Shown here: positions 33,387 to 43,584 of the stretch, piece after piece | Position numbering within the stretch: position 1 is the first letter of the stretch | Layout of the letters: the number at the start of each line of letters is the position of its first letter | Assembly (NCBI RefSeq): GCF_001434895.1 | Contig: NZ_AZEE01000027.1 | Coordinates: forward strand, 446,538-510,537 | Direction: 5' to 3' | Length of the DNA: 64,000 nucleotides | Source: Secundilactobacillus odoratitofui DSM 19909 = JCM 15043 | GTDB taxonomy: Bacteria > Bacillota > Bacilli > Lactobacillales > Lactobacillaceae | Notes under the pieces: model-generated | The model's input: only the letters and a program-made list of their open reading frames with translations | Database searches by the model: none | Told to the model about the DNA's origin: nothing | Position numbers and translations under genes: made by a program

Positions 33387-34277
33387 CTATTTAGTGGCAG
33401 CAGCGTCTTCGTCAAATAAGATGTGACGAATGTAGTCAACTGGCATATCTTCCCCAGTCCAAAGCTTGAAGGCAGCAGCACCTTGTTCGAGCATCATACC
33501 CAAACCATTGAAGACGTGTTCAACACCGGCTTCTTCGGCAACTTCCATCAACTTAGTGGTCCGTGGTGCGTAAACTGTATCAAAGACAACGAGGTCTTTA
33601 CGTAACCATGAAGGGTCACTAACTAAAGTTTGACCTTCAAGTGGGTTCATCCCAACACTAGTTGCATCGGCATAGATAAAGGCACTGTCGATTTCCTTCT
33701 TGAAGTCATCTTGGTCTTCAAGGTGGTGTAAGGTTGCCTTGCAATCAGTCTTTTCGTTGATCAAATCAACGTTACGCTGTGCTTGTGCTAAAAATTCATC
33801 ATCACGGTTAAAGATTGAAATTTCTTTAACGCCGTCTAGGGCACATTGGATTGCAATGGCAGTACCGGCACCACCGGCACCAGCTAAGGTCATCTTCTTA
33901 CCGCGAATATCGATACCTTCGTCATCAAGTGACTTGATCATACCAATTCCGTCAGTCGTATAACCGGTCAAAACACCGTGATCGTTAACAACGGTGTTAA
34001 CGGCACCAATCATTTCAGTAGCAGGATCCAATTTGTCTAATAGTGGAATAACTTTTTGCTTGTTAGGCATTGAAATGTTTGACCCGCGCATGTCCAAAGT
34101 CCGGATGGCGTTAATCGCATCTGGCAATCCATCATTTGTGATTTCGAATGCAAGATATGCAAAGTTCAAACCTAACTTATCAAAAGCGTGGTTGTGCATA
34201 GTTGGTGACATTGAATGACGAATAGGATAAGCCATCAGGCCGATTAAGATTGTGTGTCCATCTAGTTGATTTAACAT
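33387..34277 (-). CDS. Quinate/shikimate dehydrogenase paralogue (copy 1)
   Basis: A 296-residue AroE-family oxidoreductase. The substrate site has SMSPTMHN and catalytic Lys in NISMPNK, plus Asp in YTTDGIG; the nucleotide loop is LAGAGGAGTAI. After strand 2 the typical NADP-binding NRT-x-x-R/K is replaced by NRDDE, acidic where NADP enzymes are basic, which suggests NAD. This fits a dissimilatory enzyme that oxidises shikimate or quinate. It is first in the operon aroE-like, MFS, aroD, flavin reductase, with AGGAGGAA before the ATG, and is controlled by the divergent LysR gene. Confidence 0.88.
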   Translation of the reverse strand: MLNQLDGHTILIGLMAYPIRHSMSPTMHNHAFDKLGLNFAYLAFEITNDGLPDAINAIRTLDMRGSNISMPNKQKVIPLLDKLDPATEMIGAVNTVVNDHGVLTGYTTDGIGMIKSLDDEGIDIRGKKMTLAGAGGAGTAIAIQCALDGVKEISIFNRDDEFLAQAQRNVDLINEKTDCKATLHHLEDQDDFKKEIDSAFIYADATSVGMNPLEGQTLVSDPSWLRKDLVVFDTVYAPRTTKLMEVAEEAGVEHVFNGLGMMLEQGAAAFKLWTGEDMPVDYIRHILFDEDAAATK

Positions 34278-37071: not shown

Positions 37072-37950
37072 CTAATTATCCGCTTCAAACAAAACTTCGC
37101 GAATATAATCTACAGGCATATCTTCACCCGTCCAAAGTTTAAAGGCAGCTGCCCCTTGTTCCAGCATCATACCAAGACCATTGAAGACATGGGTCACACC
37201 ACCACGTTGCGCGACTTTCATTAGTTCAGTCGTCCGTGGGGCATAAACGGTATCATACACAATCAAATCCTTGCGGAACCAGCTTGGATCAGTAACCAGC
37301 GTCACGTCTTCTTGTGGTTTCATACCAGCACTGGTCGAATCGCAGTAGATAAATGAATCAGCTAATTGCGCCTTGAAGTCTGCTTGGTCTTCCAAATGGT
37401 GCAAAGTGGCATGACAACTCGTCTTCTCATTGATGATGTCAACATTGCGCTTGGCGTTGTCGAGAAATTCATCATCACGGTTAAAGATCGCCATCTCTTT
37501 GACACCATCAAATGCAGCCTGAATCGCAATGGCTGTTCCAGCACCACCAGCACCAGCCAACGTCATCTTTTGCCCGCGAATATTGAGACCTTCATCATCT
37601 AATGACTTCACAAAGCCGACGCCATCCGTGGTATATCCCGTCAACACGCCGTGATCATTCACAATCGTGTTCACGGCCCCAATCATCTCAGCAGTTGGAT
37701 CCATCTTATCAAGTAACGGAATCACTGCCTGCTTGTTTGGCATCGACAAGTTCGACCCACGCATGTCCAGCGCCCGAATGGATTCAATTGCTTTGGGCAG
37801 TGTCTCGTTGCCCACTTCAAAGGCAAGGTAAGCGTAGTTCAGGCCCAATTTTTTAAAAGCATGGTTGTGCATAGTGGGTGACATTGAATGGCGAATTGGG
37901 TATGCCATTAGCCCAATCAAAATGGTGTGTCCGTCTAATTCATTTAACAT
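37072..37950 (-). CDS. Quinate/shikimate dehydrogenase paralogue (copy 2)
   Basis: A 292-residue AroE-family enzyme, highly similar to the one at 33387: the same MLN-LDGHTILIGLMAYPIRHSMSP start, NLSMPNK with the catalytic Lys, YTTDGVG, LAGAGGAGTAI and FNRDDEFL. The acidic RDDE again suggests NAD rather than NADP. It lies 37 bases after an MFS carrier on the same strand, so the MFS-dehydrogenase pair is a duplication of the pair at 32130-34277 with gene order inverted. TAGGGGAG precedes the ATG. Confidence 0.87.
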   Translation of the reverse strand: MLNELDGHTILIGLMAYPIRHSMSPTMHNHAFKKLGLNYAYLAFEVGNETLPKAIESIRALDMRGSNLSMPNKQAVIPLLDKMDPTAEMIGAVNTIVNDHGVLTGYTTDGVGFVKSLDDEGLNIRGQKMTLAGAGGAGTAIAIQAAFDGVKEMAIFNRDDEFLDNAKRNVDIINEKTSCHATLHHLEDQADFKAQLADSFIYCDSTSAGMKPQEDVTLVTDPSWFRKDLIVYDTVYAPRTTELMKVAQRGGVTHVFNGLGMMLEQGAAAFKLWTGEDMPVDYIREVLFEADN

Positions 37951-37987: not shown

Positions 37988-39205
37988 TTACGCAATTTCT
38001 TCGGTTAATACCAAGTCGCGCCGTTTTAAAATCACCAGTGTCAGTGCACTGCAGACGATACCAGCGGCAGCAATACCGACGTCAAACCACATGATGTTAT
38101 GAATACTGGTGGTTGAAATGATCCCGGTGAAAATTGGAATAGTAAACGATGACAGCGCCCCAGCCGTATTGTAAATACCGGTGATCCGTCCTTTGGCCTT
38201 TGGAAACACATTGCCCATTATGGTCAAGCCAATCTGCATGACACCACTAGCCGCTGAAGCACCGATAACAAAGGCACCAACGGTCATCACTGACCAGACT
38301 GGCACGCTAGCCATCAAAAACAAGGTGATAAACGAAATGGTGGTGTCAATCAGCATCAACCAAGCAGGCTTTACAAACCGTTCAACAATCGCAACCGTTA
38401 ACAATACCCCGCTGATTGACCCGACGCTGTAGATGCTAACCAGTAATCTTGCGTGCGTCATGTCCAAGTGCACAACGCTTTGACCGTACTGGGTCAACCA
38501 CTGACTAATCAAGTAGAAAGTCGACATTGAAATGTAACCGAAAATGGTCAGCACAATGCCAAGTGACCACTGTGAACCGTTGAGACGGTGTTTGGTCTTA
38601 GCTTCCTTGGTTTTCCGAACTTTAACGCGCTCTTCGTGGTGTGCCATGTCCGGAAACTCTCGGTGCCAGAGGAAGACGAAGTTCCCCGCCAACAAGATAG
38701 CACAGGTCGCAAAGGACCAGCCATACCACATCTGCGCATTTTCCAAACTCGCCACAAAGATTGGCAAGATCAATTCACCAACGGATACGAAAGCTTTAAT
38801 TAAAATGTTAGCTGCCGCTTGTTTGCGTGGAAACAATTCCATCAGTGCTGGATATGTGCCAGTATCTAAGAACGAGTTCGCCATGCCAGCTAAGATACCA
38901 AAGAAGTACGCCTCGTACATGTTATGAGAGATCAGAATCCCAATGAAGAACAGCGCATACGTGACGACCCCCAACTTGACCATAAATCGCCGGCCCATCC
39001 GGTCTGACAACTCACCACCTAGATACAAGACGATCAGACGTCCAATCCCCAGTGAGGAAATCACGTAAGCAACGCCGGCATCCCCAACGTGCCAGGCCTT
39101 ACCAAGTACCAACATATTTTGTGCTAAAATCACGATTGCCATGCCGTGCACTAAGTAGTTCAAGTACAGACAAATCGTCGTCTTCAAATGTTCCCCTCGA
39201 GACAT
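37988..39205 (-). CDS. MFS transporter, shikimate/quinate type (copy 3)
   Basis: A 405-residue twelve-helix carrier. The start is the ATG at 39205 with AGGGTGA before it. Motifs ELSDRMGRRFMVKLG and FGILAGMANSFLDTGTYPALMELFP match the other two carriers in this region. It is first in a transcript with the second dehydrogenase and carrier copy 2. Its neighbours upstream are the aromatic biosynthesis genes, transcribed in the same direction from a separate promoter. The substrate is inferred from context only. Confidence 0.82.
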   Translation of the reverse strand: MSRGEHLKTTICLYLNYLVHGMAIVILAQNMLVLGKAWHVGDAGVAYVISSLGIGRLIVLYLGGELSDRMGRRFMVKLGVVTYALFFIGILISHNMYEAYFFGILAGMANSFLDTGTYPALMELFPRKQAAANILIKAFVSVGELILPIFVASLENAQMWYGWSFATCAILLAGNFVFLWHREFPDMAHHEERVKVRKTKEAKTKHRLNGSQWSLGIVLTIFGYISMSTFYLISQWLTQYGQSVVHLDMTHARLLVSIYSVGSISGVLLTVAIVERFVKPAWLMLIDTTISFITLFLMASVPVWSVMTVGAFVIGASAASGVMQIGLTIMGNVFPKAKGRITGIYNTAGALSSFTIPIFTGIISTTSIHNIMWFDVGIAAAGIVCSALTLVILKRRDLVLTEEIA

Positions 39206-39448
39206 CGCGCTCACCCTGCTTTCTTTATCCGATTCTCATCCTCGTTAACTAACAGCCGCCTTTACCTGTGATGATGTCTAAACCTGCGATACGCCAGCGT
39301 TTTGCCAAATCACCAGCGTTATCACGAGCCTTATGTAACAAGAATCCCAAGATCACTCCCAGAATTCATGCAAACTATTTCAAATCCTTACAAACCATTC
39401 GCTTCAACTTGCATGCCTTCCCAAACATGCCGGTTGTCACAACAACTC

Positions 39449-40525
39449 TTAGTCATGAGTTGTGAGTTGCAAAAATGACGCAATGTCGTCACTTGGTACT
39501 GACTTGATAGCCGGTTTCCCGATGGCCGTCAGATAAACCAGGTTCAAGTGACCGTGCCGGTTTTTCTTATCGTTTTTAACCTTCGTCAACACTTTTGGCG
39601 AGGTTAATAGTGGATCCGTAACCGGCAGCCCCACAGCACTAAAGCGATCACGTAGTTGCGCCGTGATGCCCTTTTCCGCCAAATCAGCGTTTTCAAATAC
39701 CGTCATAATGGCGACGGTGCCGATGCTGACGGCTTCACCATGTCTTAACGCACCGTCGGCTAACGCCTCAACCGCGTGACCAATGGTATGCCCAAAGTTC
39801 AACAGTTGACGAGAACCGCTCTCTGTTTCATCCGCCATCACAACCGACGCCTTGTAGTGAATCGAGCGTGCACTCAGTTCAGGCGCGTGGGTCATAATAT
39901 CAGCAGGTGCGTTGATGGTTTCGATCAGTTGCCAGAATTCACCACCTTCCAAGGCCGCTGTTTTGACAATTTCGCCATAGCCTTCCACCAAATCACGTTG
40001 GGTTAAAGTCTGTAGTGTGTTGGGATCAATAATGACTAAGTCGGGCTCGTAAAACGCCCCGATAATATTTTTAATACTGTCCAGGTCCACTGCAGTTTTA
40101 CCACCCACCGAGCTATCCACTTGGGCAAGCAACGAAGTCGGCATCTGAATAAACGCGATACCTCGCATATAGGTGGCTGCCAACAACCCAGCTAAGTCAC
40201 CGGTGACCCCACCGCCAAGCGCAATCACACCATCATCACGATTAAAGGCATCGGCCGCCATCTGACGGGCTAAATTGGCCAATACCGTGAGTGACTTGGA
40301 GGCCTCTCCAGCTGCAAATACATAGCAATGCACTTCAAAGCCAGCAGCGGTTAAAACATCTTTGACCTGAGCCTGGTAAAGTGGCGCGACGTTGTCATCG
40401 CTAACTAAAGCGATTTTTCGTGGTGACCACTGTTTGGCAACTAACTGACCGGTTTGGTCGAGCAACCCACGTTCAATCAAAACGTCATACTGTTTATCCG
40501 GTAAAGAAACTGTAACGGTCGTCAT
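39449..40525 (-). CDS. aroB: 3-dehydroquinate synthase
   Basis: A 358-residue NAD- and zinc-dependent cyclase making 3-dehydroquinate from DAHP, the second shikimate-pathway step. Family motifs are GGGVTGDLAGLLAATYMRG, PTSLLAQVDSSVGGKTAVDL, the zinc-ligand region EGYGEIVKTA, and NFGHTIGHAVE with RHGEAVSIG (zinc His residues). It is the third gene of aroE-aroF-aroB, starting one base after the aroF stop, so it is translationally coupled. The whole operon is under the leader attenuator at 42454-42790. Confidence 0.95.
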   Translation of the reverse strand: MTTVTVSLPDKQYDVLIERGLLDQTGQLVAKQWSPRKIALVSDDNVAPLYQAQVKDVLTAAGFEVHCYVFAAGEASKSLTVLANLARQMAADAFNRDDGVIALGGGVTGDLAGLLAATYMRGIAFIQMPTSLLAQVDSSVGGKTAVDLDSIKNIIGAFYEPDLVIIDPNTLQTLTQRDLVEGYGEIVKTAALEGGEFWQLIETINAPADIMTHAPELSARSIHYKASVVMADETESGSRQLLNFGHTIGHAVEALADGALRHGEAVSIGTVAIMTVFENADLAEKGITAQLRDRFSAVGLPVTDPLLTSPKVLTKVKNDKKNRHGHLNLVYLTAIGKPAIKSVPSDDIASFLQLTTHD

Positions 40526-40526
40526 C

Positions 40527-41543
40527 TTAGCGCCCCGCTTTCTCTTGTTGAACGGGTTGGCTTGCTAACAGTTCACGAATCGCAAAAGCTTTATCCGCTA
40601 AAGTCTTGAATTCATCAGGTTTGAGCGCTTGGGCACCATCAGAAAAAGCGTGAGCCGGATCATCGTGAATTTCAACCACCAAACCTGAAGCCCCAGCCGC
40701 TACACCGGCTAATCCGAGTGGTGTGACAAACTCTGTATGCCCAGCTGCGTGACTTGGGTCAATGATTACTGGGTAGTGCGTCAACTTTTGAAGCACTGGC
40801 ACAACGCCAACGTCCATCGTGTTTCGCGTGTATTTATTATCGAAGGTTCGAATACCGCGTTCTGCAATCATGATATTGTGGTTACCGCCAGCTGCGATGT
40901 ACTCCGTCGCGTTTAAAACGTCGTCCACCGTAGCGGACATACCGCGCTTCAACATTACTGGAATGTTGGTTTTCCCAACTGCCTTTAGTAGTGAGAAGTT
41001 TTGCATGTTCCGCGCGCCAATTTGGAAAATATCGGTGTACTTCGCAACCATTTCAACGTGTTCATCATCCATAACTTCAGTTAATACATCCATATCATAC
41101 TTATCGGCCGCTTGGCGTAAGTACTTCAAGCCGTCTTCGCCTAACCCTTGAAAGGAGTATGGACTCGTCCGTGGCTTGAAGGCGCCGCCACGTAATACCG
41201 TAGCGCCATTGGCCTTCGCAACTGACGCCATCTTCGTCACGTGAGCCAGTGATTCAACTGAACATGGTCCGGCCATCATGGAGAAGTTTGCGCCACCAAT
41301 CAAGCTGTGTTTAGTCTTGATCACCGTATCCTCGGGATGAAAGAGCCGGCTACCTTGAACAGCGGCAGGCACTTGATCAATCAGTTCAACTGCTGCTTGA
41401 CGTTCTGCGTCATCTAAGTCTTCAGCAGTGATACCTTGAACGGCCACCCGATTTTGATGCACAAAAACGTCGTGGTCAGCACCAAAGTGGCGCTTTAAGT
41501 TTTCAATTGTGGTTTGATCGTTTTGGTTTAATACAATAATCAT
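40527..41543 (-). CDS. aroF: DAHP synthase, type I-beta with N-terminal regulatory domain
   Basis: A 338-residue 3-deoxy-D-arabino-heptulosonate-7-phosphate synthase joining PEP and erythrose 4-phosphate, the entry to aromatic synthesis. The N-terminal 75 residues (MIIVLNQNDQTTIENLKRHF...) are a ferredoxin-like domain as in Thermotoga DAHPS, which binds Phe/Tyr for feedback control. The barrel has MMAGPCSVES with the metal Cys, LRGGAFKPRTSPYSFQG, QIGARNMQNF, PVMLKRG and DPSHAAGH. The ATG at 41543 is used with AAGGATGA before it. It is the middle gene of the aro operon. Confidence 0.95.
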   Translation of the reverse strand: MIIVLNQNDQTTIENLKRHFGADHDVFVHQNRVAVQGITAEDLDDAERQAAVELIDQVPAAVQGSRLFHPEDTVIKTKHSLIGGANFSMMAGPCSVESLAHVTKMASVAKANGATVLRGGAFKPRTSPYSFQGLGEDGLKYLRQAADKYDMDVLTEVMDDEHVEMVAKYTDIFQIGARNMQNFSLLKAVGKTNIPVMLKRGMSATVDDVLNATEYIAAGGNHNIMIAERGIRTFDNKYTRNTMDVGVVPVLQKLTHYPVIIDPSHAAGHTEFVTPLGLAGVAAGASGLVVEIHDDPAHAFSDGAQALKPDEFKTLADKAFAIRELLASQPVQQEKAGR

Positions 41544-41554
41544 AGTTATCATCC

Positions 41555-42421
41555 TTACTTTCTTTGATTGATAAGTTCTTGTTTAATCGCTGTTTTAACT
41601 GTTTCAATCGGCATCGTTTGCTTCGTCCACCGGTAAAATGACCCAGCAGCTTGTTGGACCAACATATTAATGCCGTTCATGGTCGAACATCCCCGTTGAC
41701 GCGCTTGTTTCAAAAAAGCTGTTTCAAGCGGTGCATAAATGACATCCATCACCATCTGACCTGGGTGCAAAGCCGTGACAACTGACAATGGAATCGGTGA
41801 ACTTTGGTCATCGCCCATGCCAATGTTGGTTGTGTTGACCACGACATCTGCTGTTGTTAAAACCTGTGCCATTAATTTTTCATCCTCGTACGGCAGGACC
41901 TCAATTTGCTGCGACCATTTTGATAACCGTTGCGACGTGGCTTCAAAAGTTGCATTATGTCGTTTGAAGACGGATACCTGAGCACCTTCATTAGCCGCGG
42001 CCGCAATGACAGCCCGACCAGCGCCACCAGCACCTAGGACGACGACGTGCTTACCGTTTACTGACACGTGTTCATCTAGTAACGCATTGATAAAGCCTTC
42101 GCCGTCAGTACTATCACCTATTAAATGGCCGTCATGATTAATCACTGTATTCACAGCTCCGAGTTGCTGTGCGATTGGCGTCAATTCATCTAGGTAGTTA
42201 ATGATGTGTTCCTTATACGGCATTGACACATTGATTCCTTTGATTGGCAACGCCCGCATGGCCCTGATCACATCGCTAAAGTGTTTATGATCAACATCAA
42301 AAGCCAAGTAAACACTGTTGATATTTAACGTTTGGAAACTTGTATTATGAATCAATGGTGACAAACTGTGTCCTGCTGGTTCAGCAATTAATTCATATAG
42401 GCTTGTATGTGCATCGACCAA
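41555..42421 (-). CDS. aroE: Shikimate dehydrogenase (biosynthetic)
   Basis: A 288-residue enzyme reducing 3-dehydroshikimate to shikimate. It has HSLSPLIHN, catalytic Lys in NVSMPYKEH, DSTDGEGF, LGAGGAGRAV and NTTNIGMG. The start is TTG at 42421: GGGAGGTGA lies seven bases upstream, and earlier ATGs fall in the attenuator terminator or that binding site. The acidic NRDDE of the two catabolic paralogues is absent (FKRHNAT, basic), consistent with NADPH and biosynthesis. It is first in aroE-aroF-aroB, with the stop 12 bases before aroF. Expression is governed by the aromatic leader peptide upstream. Confidence 0.92.
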   Translation of the reverse strand: MVDAHTSLYELIAEPAGHSLSPLIHNTSFQTLNINSVYLAFDVDHKHFSDVIRAMRALPIKGINVSMPYKEHIINYLDELTPIAQQLGAVNTVINHDGHLIGDSTDGEGFINALLDEHVSVNGKHVVVLGAGGAGRAVIAAAANEGAQVSVFKRHNATFEATSQRLSKWSQQIEVLPYEDEKLMAQVLTTADVVVNTTNIGMGDDQSSPIPLSVVTALHPGQMVMDVIYAPLETAFLKQARQRGCSTMNGINMLVQQAAGSFYRWTKQTMPIETVKTAIKQELINQRK

Positions 42422-42453: not shown

Positions 42454-42495
42454 AAAAAATCCCACATTGCTTTGTTTTCACAAAACACTGTGGGA
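42454..42495 (-). terminator. Attenuator terminator of the aro operon
   Basis: On the minus strand TCCCACA (42489-42495) pairs with TGTGGGA (42460-42466), the inner TTTGT/ACAAA extends it, and six T follow (42454-42459). It ends 33 bases before the aroE start. Its 5' arm (CACAGTGTTTTG, 42481-42492) can instead pair with 42536-42547. Confidence 0.85.
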
Positions 42496-42566
42496 CGATT
42501 AATCGTCAAATTATGAACGGAAGTTGTCCGTGTCACACAGTGTTTTGAACTTCTTAACTGTGTGAC
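42481..42566 (-). promoter_or_regulatory. Competing antiterminator and anti-antiterminator helices
   Basis: Segment 42536-42547 (minus strand CAAAACACTGTG) is an exact 12-base complement of 42481-42492, part of the terminator stem: the antiterminator. The same segment also pairs in a 10-bp perfect hairpin (42532-42541 with 42557-42566, GTCACACAGT/ACTGTGTGAC on the plus strand), which would release the terminator. These mutually exclusive pairings are the mark of transcription attenuation. Confidence 0.8.
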
Positions 42567-42641
42567 CGGCTGAATTGATGCTGAAAAACTATTGGCCGCA
42601 CAGATTGCAGATGCGTGTCTGCAACCTGTCCGGTGTAGACA

Positions 42642-42707
42642 CTACTTTGACCAATAGTAGCTAAATCGATTTAATTGTCGGTTTAATGCCTGTAATTTCA
42701 GATTCAT
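42642..42707 (-). CDS. Aromatic leader peptide of the aroEFB operon
   Basis: A 21-codon ORF on the minus strand with GAGGAG eight bases before its ATG. It starts Met-Asn-Leu-Lys and ends Phe-Ser-Tyr-Tyr-Trp-Ser-Lys-stop, so four of the last seven residues are aromatic and all three end products of the pathway are represented. The Tyr-Tyr-Trp codons (CTATTGG on the transcript) lie in a strand that pairs with CCAATAG downstream (near 42590-42596), enclosing an inner TTGCAGA/TCTGCAA hairpin. A ribosome stalled at these codons would change downstream folding. The peptide itself needs no further function. Confidence 0.8.
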   Translation of the reverse strand: MNLKLQALNRQLNRFSYYWSK

Positions 42708-42759
42708 ATTCAAAACTCCTCGACTTTTGTTTACAACTTTACTTAAATGATTGACTATG

Positions 42760-42788
42760 ACTTTAAACTATTAGATTTCTTCTGTCAA
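42760..42788 (-). promoter_or_regulatory. Promoter of the aro operon
   Basis: Minus strand TTGACA (42783-42788), 17-base spacer, TAAAGT (42760-42765). Transcription would begin near 42753, about 46 bases before the leader-peptide ATG. Confidence 0.65.
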
Positions 42789-43112: not shown

Positions 43113-43402
43113 TCCATAAAAACCAACGATGTGGAGATCAAGATTATCGTGCACGTCAAGAGAGTCGCCGCTGCTGAGAGTGCGACCGAACGCAGATAGT
43201 TAAATGGACCACAGAGGGTTCCCTTGAAAGACTGATTGAGTATGGGGAAACGTACAGGCATACGTCAGTTGTCGGAAGTGTGAACACGCACTTCGCTAAG
43301 GGTGACGGGAGCAATCCCGTCAAATTAAGGTGGCACCGCGGAATAAACATCCGTCCTTAACAAAACGTCTATTAGACGTCATGTTATGGGCGGATTTTTT
43401 GT
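43113..43402 (+). ncRNA. T-box leader (Trp) of trpEG
   Basis: The conserved T-box sequence AAGGTGGCACCGCGG is at 43327-43341, ahead of a terminator (CCGTCC ... GGGCGG, TTTTTT) ending near 43400. Upstream stem I contains AGAGAG, GCTGAGAG and a specifier region reading GTTAAA-TGG-ACCACAGAG, so the specifier codon is UGG (43205-43207), read by tRNA-Trp. Uncharged tRNA-Trp would stabilise the antiterminator and turn on trpE and trpG. It is nearly the same as the leader at 45859. Confidence 0.92.
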
Positions 43403-43419
43403 GTTGCCAGAGCGTGGAA

Positions 43420-43513
43420 CAAAACGGTTTGAGACCGGAGTGTAAGGTACTTCAGTCAAAAATCCTGAACTTGGATTTTGGACTGAAGTACTTACATGCA
43501 GGTCTCAGTTTTG
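43420..43513 (-). repeat. Long palindromic element in trpE leader, divergent family 1 relative
   Basis: A 94-base imperfect palindrome inserted between the T-box and the mini-ORF; the twin leader lacks it. On the minus strand CAAAAC-TGAGACC pairs with GGTCTC-A and GTTTTG, with a 3'-side bulge of AACC, the same layout as the AAAC bulge in family 1. The apical stem (GTACTTCAGTC/GACTGAAGTAC, AAAATCC/GGATTTT) is long. Confidence 0.55.
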
Positions 43514-43554
43514 CTAAGCGCCTTTCAGCAATAACCAACAAGGAGAACTCAATC

Positions 43555-43584
43555 ATGACAAACCACAAACGATGGCAAAACTAA
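43555..43584 (+). CDS. Mini-ORF with Trp codon, trpE leader
   Basis: Nine codons, MTNHKRWQN, with AAGGAG nine bases before the ATG, ending 48 bases before trpE. The start and MTN-xx-RWQN pattern recur in the leader of trpD at 46206, so it is conserved. It could couple translation to charged tRNA-Trp supply after the T-box decision. Confidence 0.55.
   Translation: MTNHKRWQN

Follow-up and report, generated by a model that had tools for sequence, protein, structure and literature searches.

A putative leader-peptide attenuator upstream of the shikimate genes of Secundilactobacillus odoratitofui and its codon-swapped relatives in the Lactobacillales

The window analysed here is a stretch of 64,000 nucleotides from the 2.75 Mb genome of Secundilactobacillus odoratitofui DSM 19909 = JCM 15043 (contig NZ_AZEE01000027.1). 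Its minus strand carries aroE, coding for shikimate dehydrogenase (41555-42421, TIGR00507), aroF, coding for DAHP synthase (40527-41552, TIGR01361), and aroB, coding for 3-dehydroquinate synthase (39449-40525, TIGR01357), all above the cutoffs of the NCBIfam models. The start of aroE is probably the TTG at 42421, because this codon and its Shine-Dalgarno (SD) sequence come after the terminator described below, in an arrangement that is similar in 9 of 13 sequences from the genus; it was preferred to the GTG at 42481, where a mechanical listing of open reading frames begins the gene. Two more aroE paralogues, at 33423-34265 and 37093-37938 on the minus strand, are 36% and 34% identical to the leader-linked aroE. 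Past aroB lies an MFS transporter gene (37988-39214, minus strand); since homologues of it stand directly behind aromatic leaders of their own at two other loci (L174 and L184), a role of this transporter in aromatic metabolism is predicted.

The first-pass annotation had read, in front of aroE, a promoter, a ribosome-binding site, a short open reading frame (ORF), competing helices and a terminator, and all of these are present on the minus strand. The promoter (42760-42788) is of the sigma-70 type, with TTGACA at 42788-42783, TAAAGT at 42765-42760 and 17 nt between them, and this block is similar throughout the genus alignment. An AGGAG motif (42716-42720) precedes a leader ORF of 21 codons, MNLKLQALNRQLNRFSYYWSK (42642-42707), whose C-terminus reads FSYYWSK-stop; the putative sensor codons, Phe-Ser-Tyr-Tyr-Trp, occupy 42651-42665. 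Segment L, ACTATTGG (42658-42651), is inside these codons, and its CTATTGG (42657-42651) is complementary to CCAATAG (42595-42589) in segment c. Segment a (GTGTCT, 42637-42642) overlaps the stop codon of the leader. Then come segment b (CCG..ACAGGTTGCAGACAC, 42615-42633), which can pair with a or c, segment c (TCTGCAATCTGTGCGGCCAATAGT, 42588-42611), which can pair with b, L or d, segment d (GGTCACACAG, 42558-42567), which can pair with c or e, and segment e (CAAAACACTGTGTGAC, 42532-42547), which can pair with d or f. Segments f (42481-42495) and g (42454-42474) are the two sides of the terminator, with arms at 42495-42481 and 42474-42460 and a run of six T at 42459-42454.

An exact 12-base helix (42481-42492 with 42536-42547) and a 10-base helix competing with it (42532-42541 with 42557-42566) had also been noted, and both exist as described, but neither bridges the gap between the codons and the antiterminator. 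The bridge is the c:d helix (42603-42594 with 42567-42558), which extends the arrangement into a relay. In the OFF state of this relay L:c, d:e and f:g would be formed, in the ON state c:d and e:f, and an extra choice between a:b and b:c lies just past the stop codon.

We consider it very probable that the aro leader is a ribosome-dependent transcription attenuator, which works by stalling on aromatic codons. A shortage of charged Phe-, Tyr- or Trp-tRNA would make the ribosome stall on FSYYW and mask segment L; segment c, no longer held by L, could then pair with d, which would free e to form the antiterminator with f, so that the f:g terminator would be blocked and aroE-aroF-aroB transcribed. 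When nothing holds the ribosome, L:c, d:e and f:g would form, and transcription would end before aroE. The three aromatic amino acids may be sensed jointly.

The peptide and the competing helices are both conserved in relatives within the Lactobacillaceae, so that the lack of conservation by which the first-pass reading would have been refuted is not observed. Within the genus, aroE has a match in 14 of 15 genomes, that of the window included (the exception is G008), and the leader lies immediately upstream of it in 13 of them; in the fourteenth (G006), the leader precedes a cluster of genes for chorismate synthase, EPSP synthase and prephenate dehydrogenase instead. Over the core of the leader, the mean column identity is 85% for 11 sequences from the genus. 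The covariance model R1, built on these 11 sequences, matches 61 of 397 genomes of the family, from 10 of its 40 genera. Every R1 locus was retrieved, which gave a set of 61 leaders (13 aroE leaders from the genus and 48 others). Each of the 61 contains an ORF of 13-24 codons with 4-7 aromatic residues within an eight-residue stretch, and each has aromatic-pathway genes downstream: aroF-aroB, aroE-aroF-aroB, transketolase followed by aroE-aroF or aroF, or aroC-aroA-tyrA. An SD motif is present in 59 (it is weak in L033, and L066 is cut by the end of a contig). Tyr is the most frequent sensor residue, and Trp occurs in 60 of the peptides, the exception (L074) reading SYYYYQPR-stop.

Of the 188 leaders in the wider collection described below, 186 have a hairpin with a T-run behind them, compared with 20 of 564 control regions shuffled by dinucleotide blocks. 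Together with the conservation, this excess indicates that the features of the leader are more than chance. Antisense matches of the covariance models (one in one search, five in another) were excluded as reverse-complement echoes of inverted repeats, and three of the 28 matches of a pattern search (L101, L115 and L123), which come from unrelated bacteria, were treated as chance.

Within a genus, the sequences are too similar for covariation to be informative (RNAalifold finds a two-sided change in 1 of 43 pairs), which is why tests across genera were used. We compared the duplex energy of each leader's own segments with that of its segments paired with those of other genera. For the 61 leaders, the means for own and cross pairs are -12.2 and -9.9 kcal/mol for L:c, -15.1 and -10.9 for a:b, -19.7 and -11.0 for b:c, -13.8 and -11.4 for c:d, -14.8 and -12.6 for d:e, and -18.0 and -12.3 for e:f. 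For these six adjacent helices, the own pairing is stronger than the mean cross pairing in 54-61 of the 61 leaders, with a mean gain of 2.2-8.7 kcal/mol; for eight non-adjacent control pairs, this is so in only 16-40 of 61, and the top gain is 0.6 kcal/mol (a:d). With a single locus per genus, five helices favor the own pairing in 10 of 10 cases; c:d, where the covariation is weakest, does so in 8 of 10. Segments d and e and the landmark of c were placed by sequence patterns that we wrote, while f and g were picked by complementarity, so that covariation of f:g is not independent evidence.

In the L:c helix, the codon before Trp and the base facing its third position in c are TAT and A in 46 of 61 leaders, TAC and G in 10 and TTT and A in 4, with one exception (in genus g6, to which L074 belongs). 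One codon upstream, where 57 loci can be compared, TAC with G is found in 41, TAT with A in 11 and other codons with G in 4, again with one exception. Synonymous changes in the third base of Tyr codons are thus matched by compensating changes in c, and the amino acid is mostly unchanged. The pairing and the coding for Tyr are maintained alike.

These data bear on whether the leader could be a metabolite riboswitch, or a binding site for a protein, in which the ORF is incidental. The sequence is strongly conserved at the level of the genus, including its non-coding parts, as such an element would have it; the mutually exclusive helices, however, account for the conserved parts, the ORF is there in 61 of 61 leaders with an SD motif in 59, and no riboswitch or T-box of Rfam is found on the strand of the aro leader, where a scan returned no family at the gathering score or at E-values up to 1. 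We regard this explanation as highly improbable. As regards a T-box (RF00230), which was considered for the aro leader and rejected, the sole match in the window is on the plus strand, before trpE.

If the leader is a ribosome-dependent attenuator, masking it as a stalled ribosome would do should favor the c:d helix. In transcripts ending at d, with the best of three stall positions, the expected number of c:d pairs increases by more than 0.5 in 59 of the 61 leaders and decreases in none. Masking by a ribosome at the stop codon gives on average 6.4 expected c:d pairs in the 61 leaders, which is about the same as stalling (3.8-7.1). In the window species itself, only 0.2-0.7 c:d pairs are expected with the ribosome at Tyr or Trp, because of the strong b:c hairpin, and 4.6 with the ribosome at the stop codon. 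When the transcript of the window ends at f, its minimum-energy fold contains e:f without a ribosome. A ribosome on the second Tyr codon or on the Trp codon gives d:e instead, and the first Tyr is the only stall position that gives e:f. The equilibrium folds at the second Tyr and Trp run against the attenuation model in the window species, and equilibrium folding does not support a simple thermodynamic switch there. Considering also that stop-codon masking is about equivalent to stalling, the switch, if real, must be kinetic, and it would be the time that the ribosome spends on the leader that matters, not its position alone.

Termination may also occur at more than one place in relatives from other genera. 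A run of at least 4 U follows the d:e hairpin in 33 of the 61 leaders (in 0 of 14 in the genus of the window), and at least two terminator-like hairpins are present in 53 of the 188 leaders, which suggests that part of the family has two terminators in series.

The 188 distinct loci come from searches that extend beyond R1. R2, a covariance model from 47 sequences, matches 126 of 397 genomes of the family (23 of 40 genera) and 42 of 395 genomes of the order. R3, a model from 60 sequences that was trained on R2 matches, so that drift is possible, matches 253 of 395 genomes of the order (64 of 80 genera), with rough E-values and part of the matches retrieved; it also matches 35 of 388 genomes of the class, 30 of which belong to the same order. 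Three loci were discarded because they repeat others (L233 repeats L213, L236 repeats L152 and L245 repeats L214), and a second match at L133 was left out. The R2 and R3 loci were selected by hand, with more weight on new families and genomes with several copies, and counts over the 188 loci are therefore not those of a random sample. With this reservation, the first recognised gene behind the leader is a TrpX-type transporter (52 loci), aroE (37), aroF (34), transketolase (27), an aminotransferase (18), pheA (3), LivJ (3), ilvE, ilvA, TrpY or MFS (2 each), and in single cases aroC, aroB, DH, a PTS-like gene, ilvB or none. The genes received their names from similar proteins encoded at these same loci, NCBIfam being applied to representatives only, and the assignments of LivJ, LivH, TrpX, pheA and aminotransferase score below the curated NCBIfam cutoffs. 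The three leaders of pheA (prephenate dehydratase) read TFFFSDFR-stop, with Phe only, and come from genomes that share the class but belong to other orders.

The genome of the window has a second copy of the leader on contig 11 (L193, matched by R3 only, E 0.0013), with the peptide MNVNAISQLNSRFYFWFFQS, upstream of an aminotransferase and a hydroxyacid dehydrogenase. Within the last 12 residues, the leaders of the 52 TrpX-type loci (for example L133, L142, L195, L214 and L230) contain Phe and Tyr but lack Trp, and it may be that the ABC transporters behind them carry Phe and Tyr rather than Trp. If the attenuator reading is true, it yields predictions for these poorly annotated genes: the TrpX-type transporters, the aminotransferase/hydroxyacid-dehydrogenase pair and the MFS protein. 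A membrane protein family is found under or beside an aromatic leader at L162, L175, L178, L182 and L192; the member from L162, the only one scanned, has no NCBIfam match at E-values up to 1e-10. At L181 (genome G177), a shortened second copy of the leader keeps its peptide intact, has lost most of segment c and has no recognised gene behind it.

Some members of the wider collection carry codons of branched-chain amino acids in place of the aromatic ones. In family f5, threonine ammonia-lyase is encoded behind leaders such as MKKQLLTTTQTVNIISIIR, and ilvE, acetolactate synthase or LivJ-like genes stand behind other leaders of this kind. A leader with at least 4 aromatics in its last 12 residues was classed as aromatic (179 leaders); 6 were classed as branched-chain and 3 as neither, the latter being L241, L251 (Phe) and L252 (branched-chain). 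For one of the 179, L247, the rule had taken an out-of-frame ORF, and the frame that starts with GTG reads VNQRTQLLLNIIISIIR, which is of the branched-chain type. With this one hand correction, 8 of 8 Ile/Leu/Val-type leaders, and no aromatic leader, stand before branched-chain genes (the table is 7/0/1/179 without the correction). The class of the codons thus tracks that of the gene, with a Fisher p-value of 5.6e-12 (188-locus table minus L181) that is only a guide, since the loci are related by descent and relatedness is uncorrected. The pairing strand differs accordingly: the branched-chain codons pair with their own c at -16.5 kcal/mol, compared with -10.5 kcal/mol for the c of the first 80 aromatic loci, and they prefer their own in 8 of 8 cases; conversely, the aromatic codons prefer their own c in 60 of 60 leaders sampled from the 179. 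The first Ile-type leader, L152, was matched by R2 (E 0.0048), whose training contained no such sequence.

That the codons change with the pathway, and the pairing strand with the codons, favors codon sensing on one scaffold, and the Ile-type leaders thus speak for it. A different mechanism would be an arrest peptide, the ribosome being stalled by the nascent chain, in response to a free aromatic metabolite, rather than by the codons. Some residues do recur beyond what codon sensing needs, namely N-R or N-S before the aromatic run and S or R in it and after it. Yet the Ile-type leaders mostly keep S and R while the aromatic residues swap together with the pathway, the AGATAG at the end of the ORF pairs with c in 7 of 8 Ile-type leaders, so that RNA pairing can explain R and the stop codon, and the length and N-terminus of the peptide are variable; we therefore find an arrest peptide improbable. 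This natural swap makes codon and nascent-peptide sensing, an old alternative, directly distinguishable by experiment on one scaffold.

The relatives also include an element that Rfam lists as "Gene; sRNA". RF02863 does not match the window, even at E-values up to 1, and matches 5 of the 32 relatives scanned, L214, L222, L224 and L142 in TrpX-type operons and L149 before aroE. It corresponds to sRNA_2410, reported as a 195-nt RNA of Enterococcus that gives two transcripts on Northern blots (PMC5593968); a term search of the main text of that article finds neither "leader peptide" nor "attenuation". These matches and the two transcripts would fit a free-standing small RNA, but a terminating attenuator also yields a short transcript, and all five matches are upstream of aroE or TrpX-type genes with a leader ORF inside. 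The small-RNA explanation has, in our opinion, very little chance of being right; the data on sRNA_2410 are consistent with terminated leaders, and if they are, RF02863 would have to be reassigned.

We think it likely that a single homologous scaffold acts as general regulator for aromatic amino acids in the order, that an exchange of its sensor codons (FSYFR-stop to ISIIR-stop), compensated in the pairing strand, retargeted it to branched-chain transport and biosynthesis genes, and that the Enterococcus RNA is its terminated product, the two sizes of which reflect two terminators in series.

The his attenuator of Salmonella and E. coli has a leader peptide containing the regulated amino acid and stems A:B, C:D and E:F that exclude B:C and D:E. 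The aro leader is similar in combining a leader peptide with a chain of alternative stems, and differs by the extra a:b/b:c choice past the stop codon and by the U-run behind d:e in some other genera. The RF01743 element of Lactococcus is likewise of the leader type and comes from the same order as the window species. It is the Leu/phe leader of Rfam (PMC2864571), and it matches neither the window nor the 32 loci scanned.

The first-pass annotation held that peptide attenuation is best documented in Proteobacteria and Actinobacteria, which needs qualifying. In the Firmicutes, the ilv-leu operon of S. aureus has a leader-peptide attenuator (PMC5794164), and leader peptides precede his and hisS genes (PMC2965389, PMC9413887). 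The S. aureus element resembles the aro leader in that codons for the regulated amino acid abound in its short ORF and in that a terminator competes with an antiterminator; it differs in that it concerns branched-chain amino acids only, and no comparable relay is described in the available part of the source (PMC5794164). Leader-peptide attenuation is thus already known in other Firmicutes. The annotation's reading of the locus as a leader-peptide attenuator is itself supported by the conservation of the peptide and helices and by the codons that track the downstream pathway. None of the literature matches listed describes the element as a leader peptide of the Lactobacillales.

T-boxes and regulator proteins are generally held responsible for controlling amino acid genes in lactic acid bacteria. 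If the proposal is true, an order-wide leader-peptide regulon would fill a gap in the regulation of the shikimate pathway. T-boxes read tRNA directly, without translation; as proposed for the aro leader, what they sense is tRNA charging. The swap of sensor codons described above would be the ribosome-reading counterpart of a change of specifier codon in a T-box.

Last, the window shows the two kinds of element side by side. A T-box (43117-43361, plus strand; 91.1 bits, just below the Rfam gathering score of 93) precedes the divergent trp operon, so that the back-to-back aro and trp operons appear to use two different sensors of tRNA charging. The interval between the terminator of this T-box and trpE contains a long inverted repeat (43419-43514, plus strand), which is the source of spurious matches to microRNA families. 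Between the T-box and trpE, there is also a short ORF with an SD sequence, MTNHKRWQN-stop (43555-43584, plus strand), and an ORF containing RWQ precedes trpE in all 5 Secundilactobacillus loci that reach this gene, among ten loci inspected.
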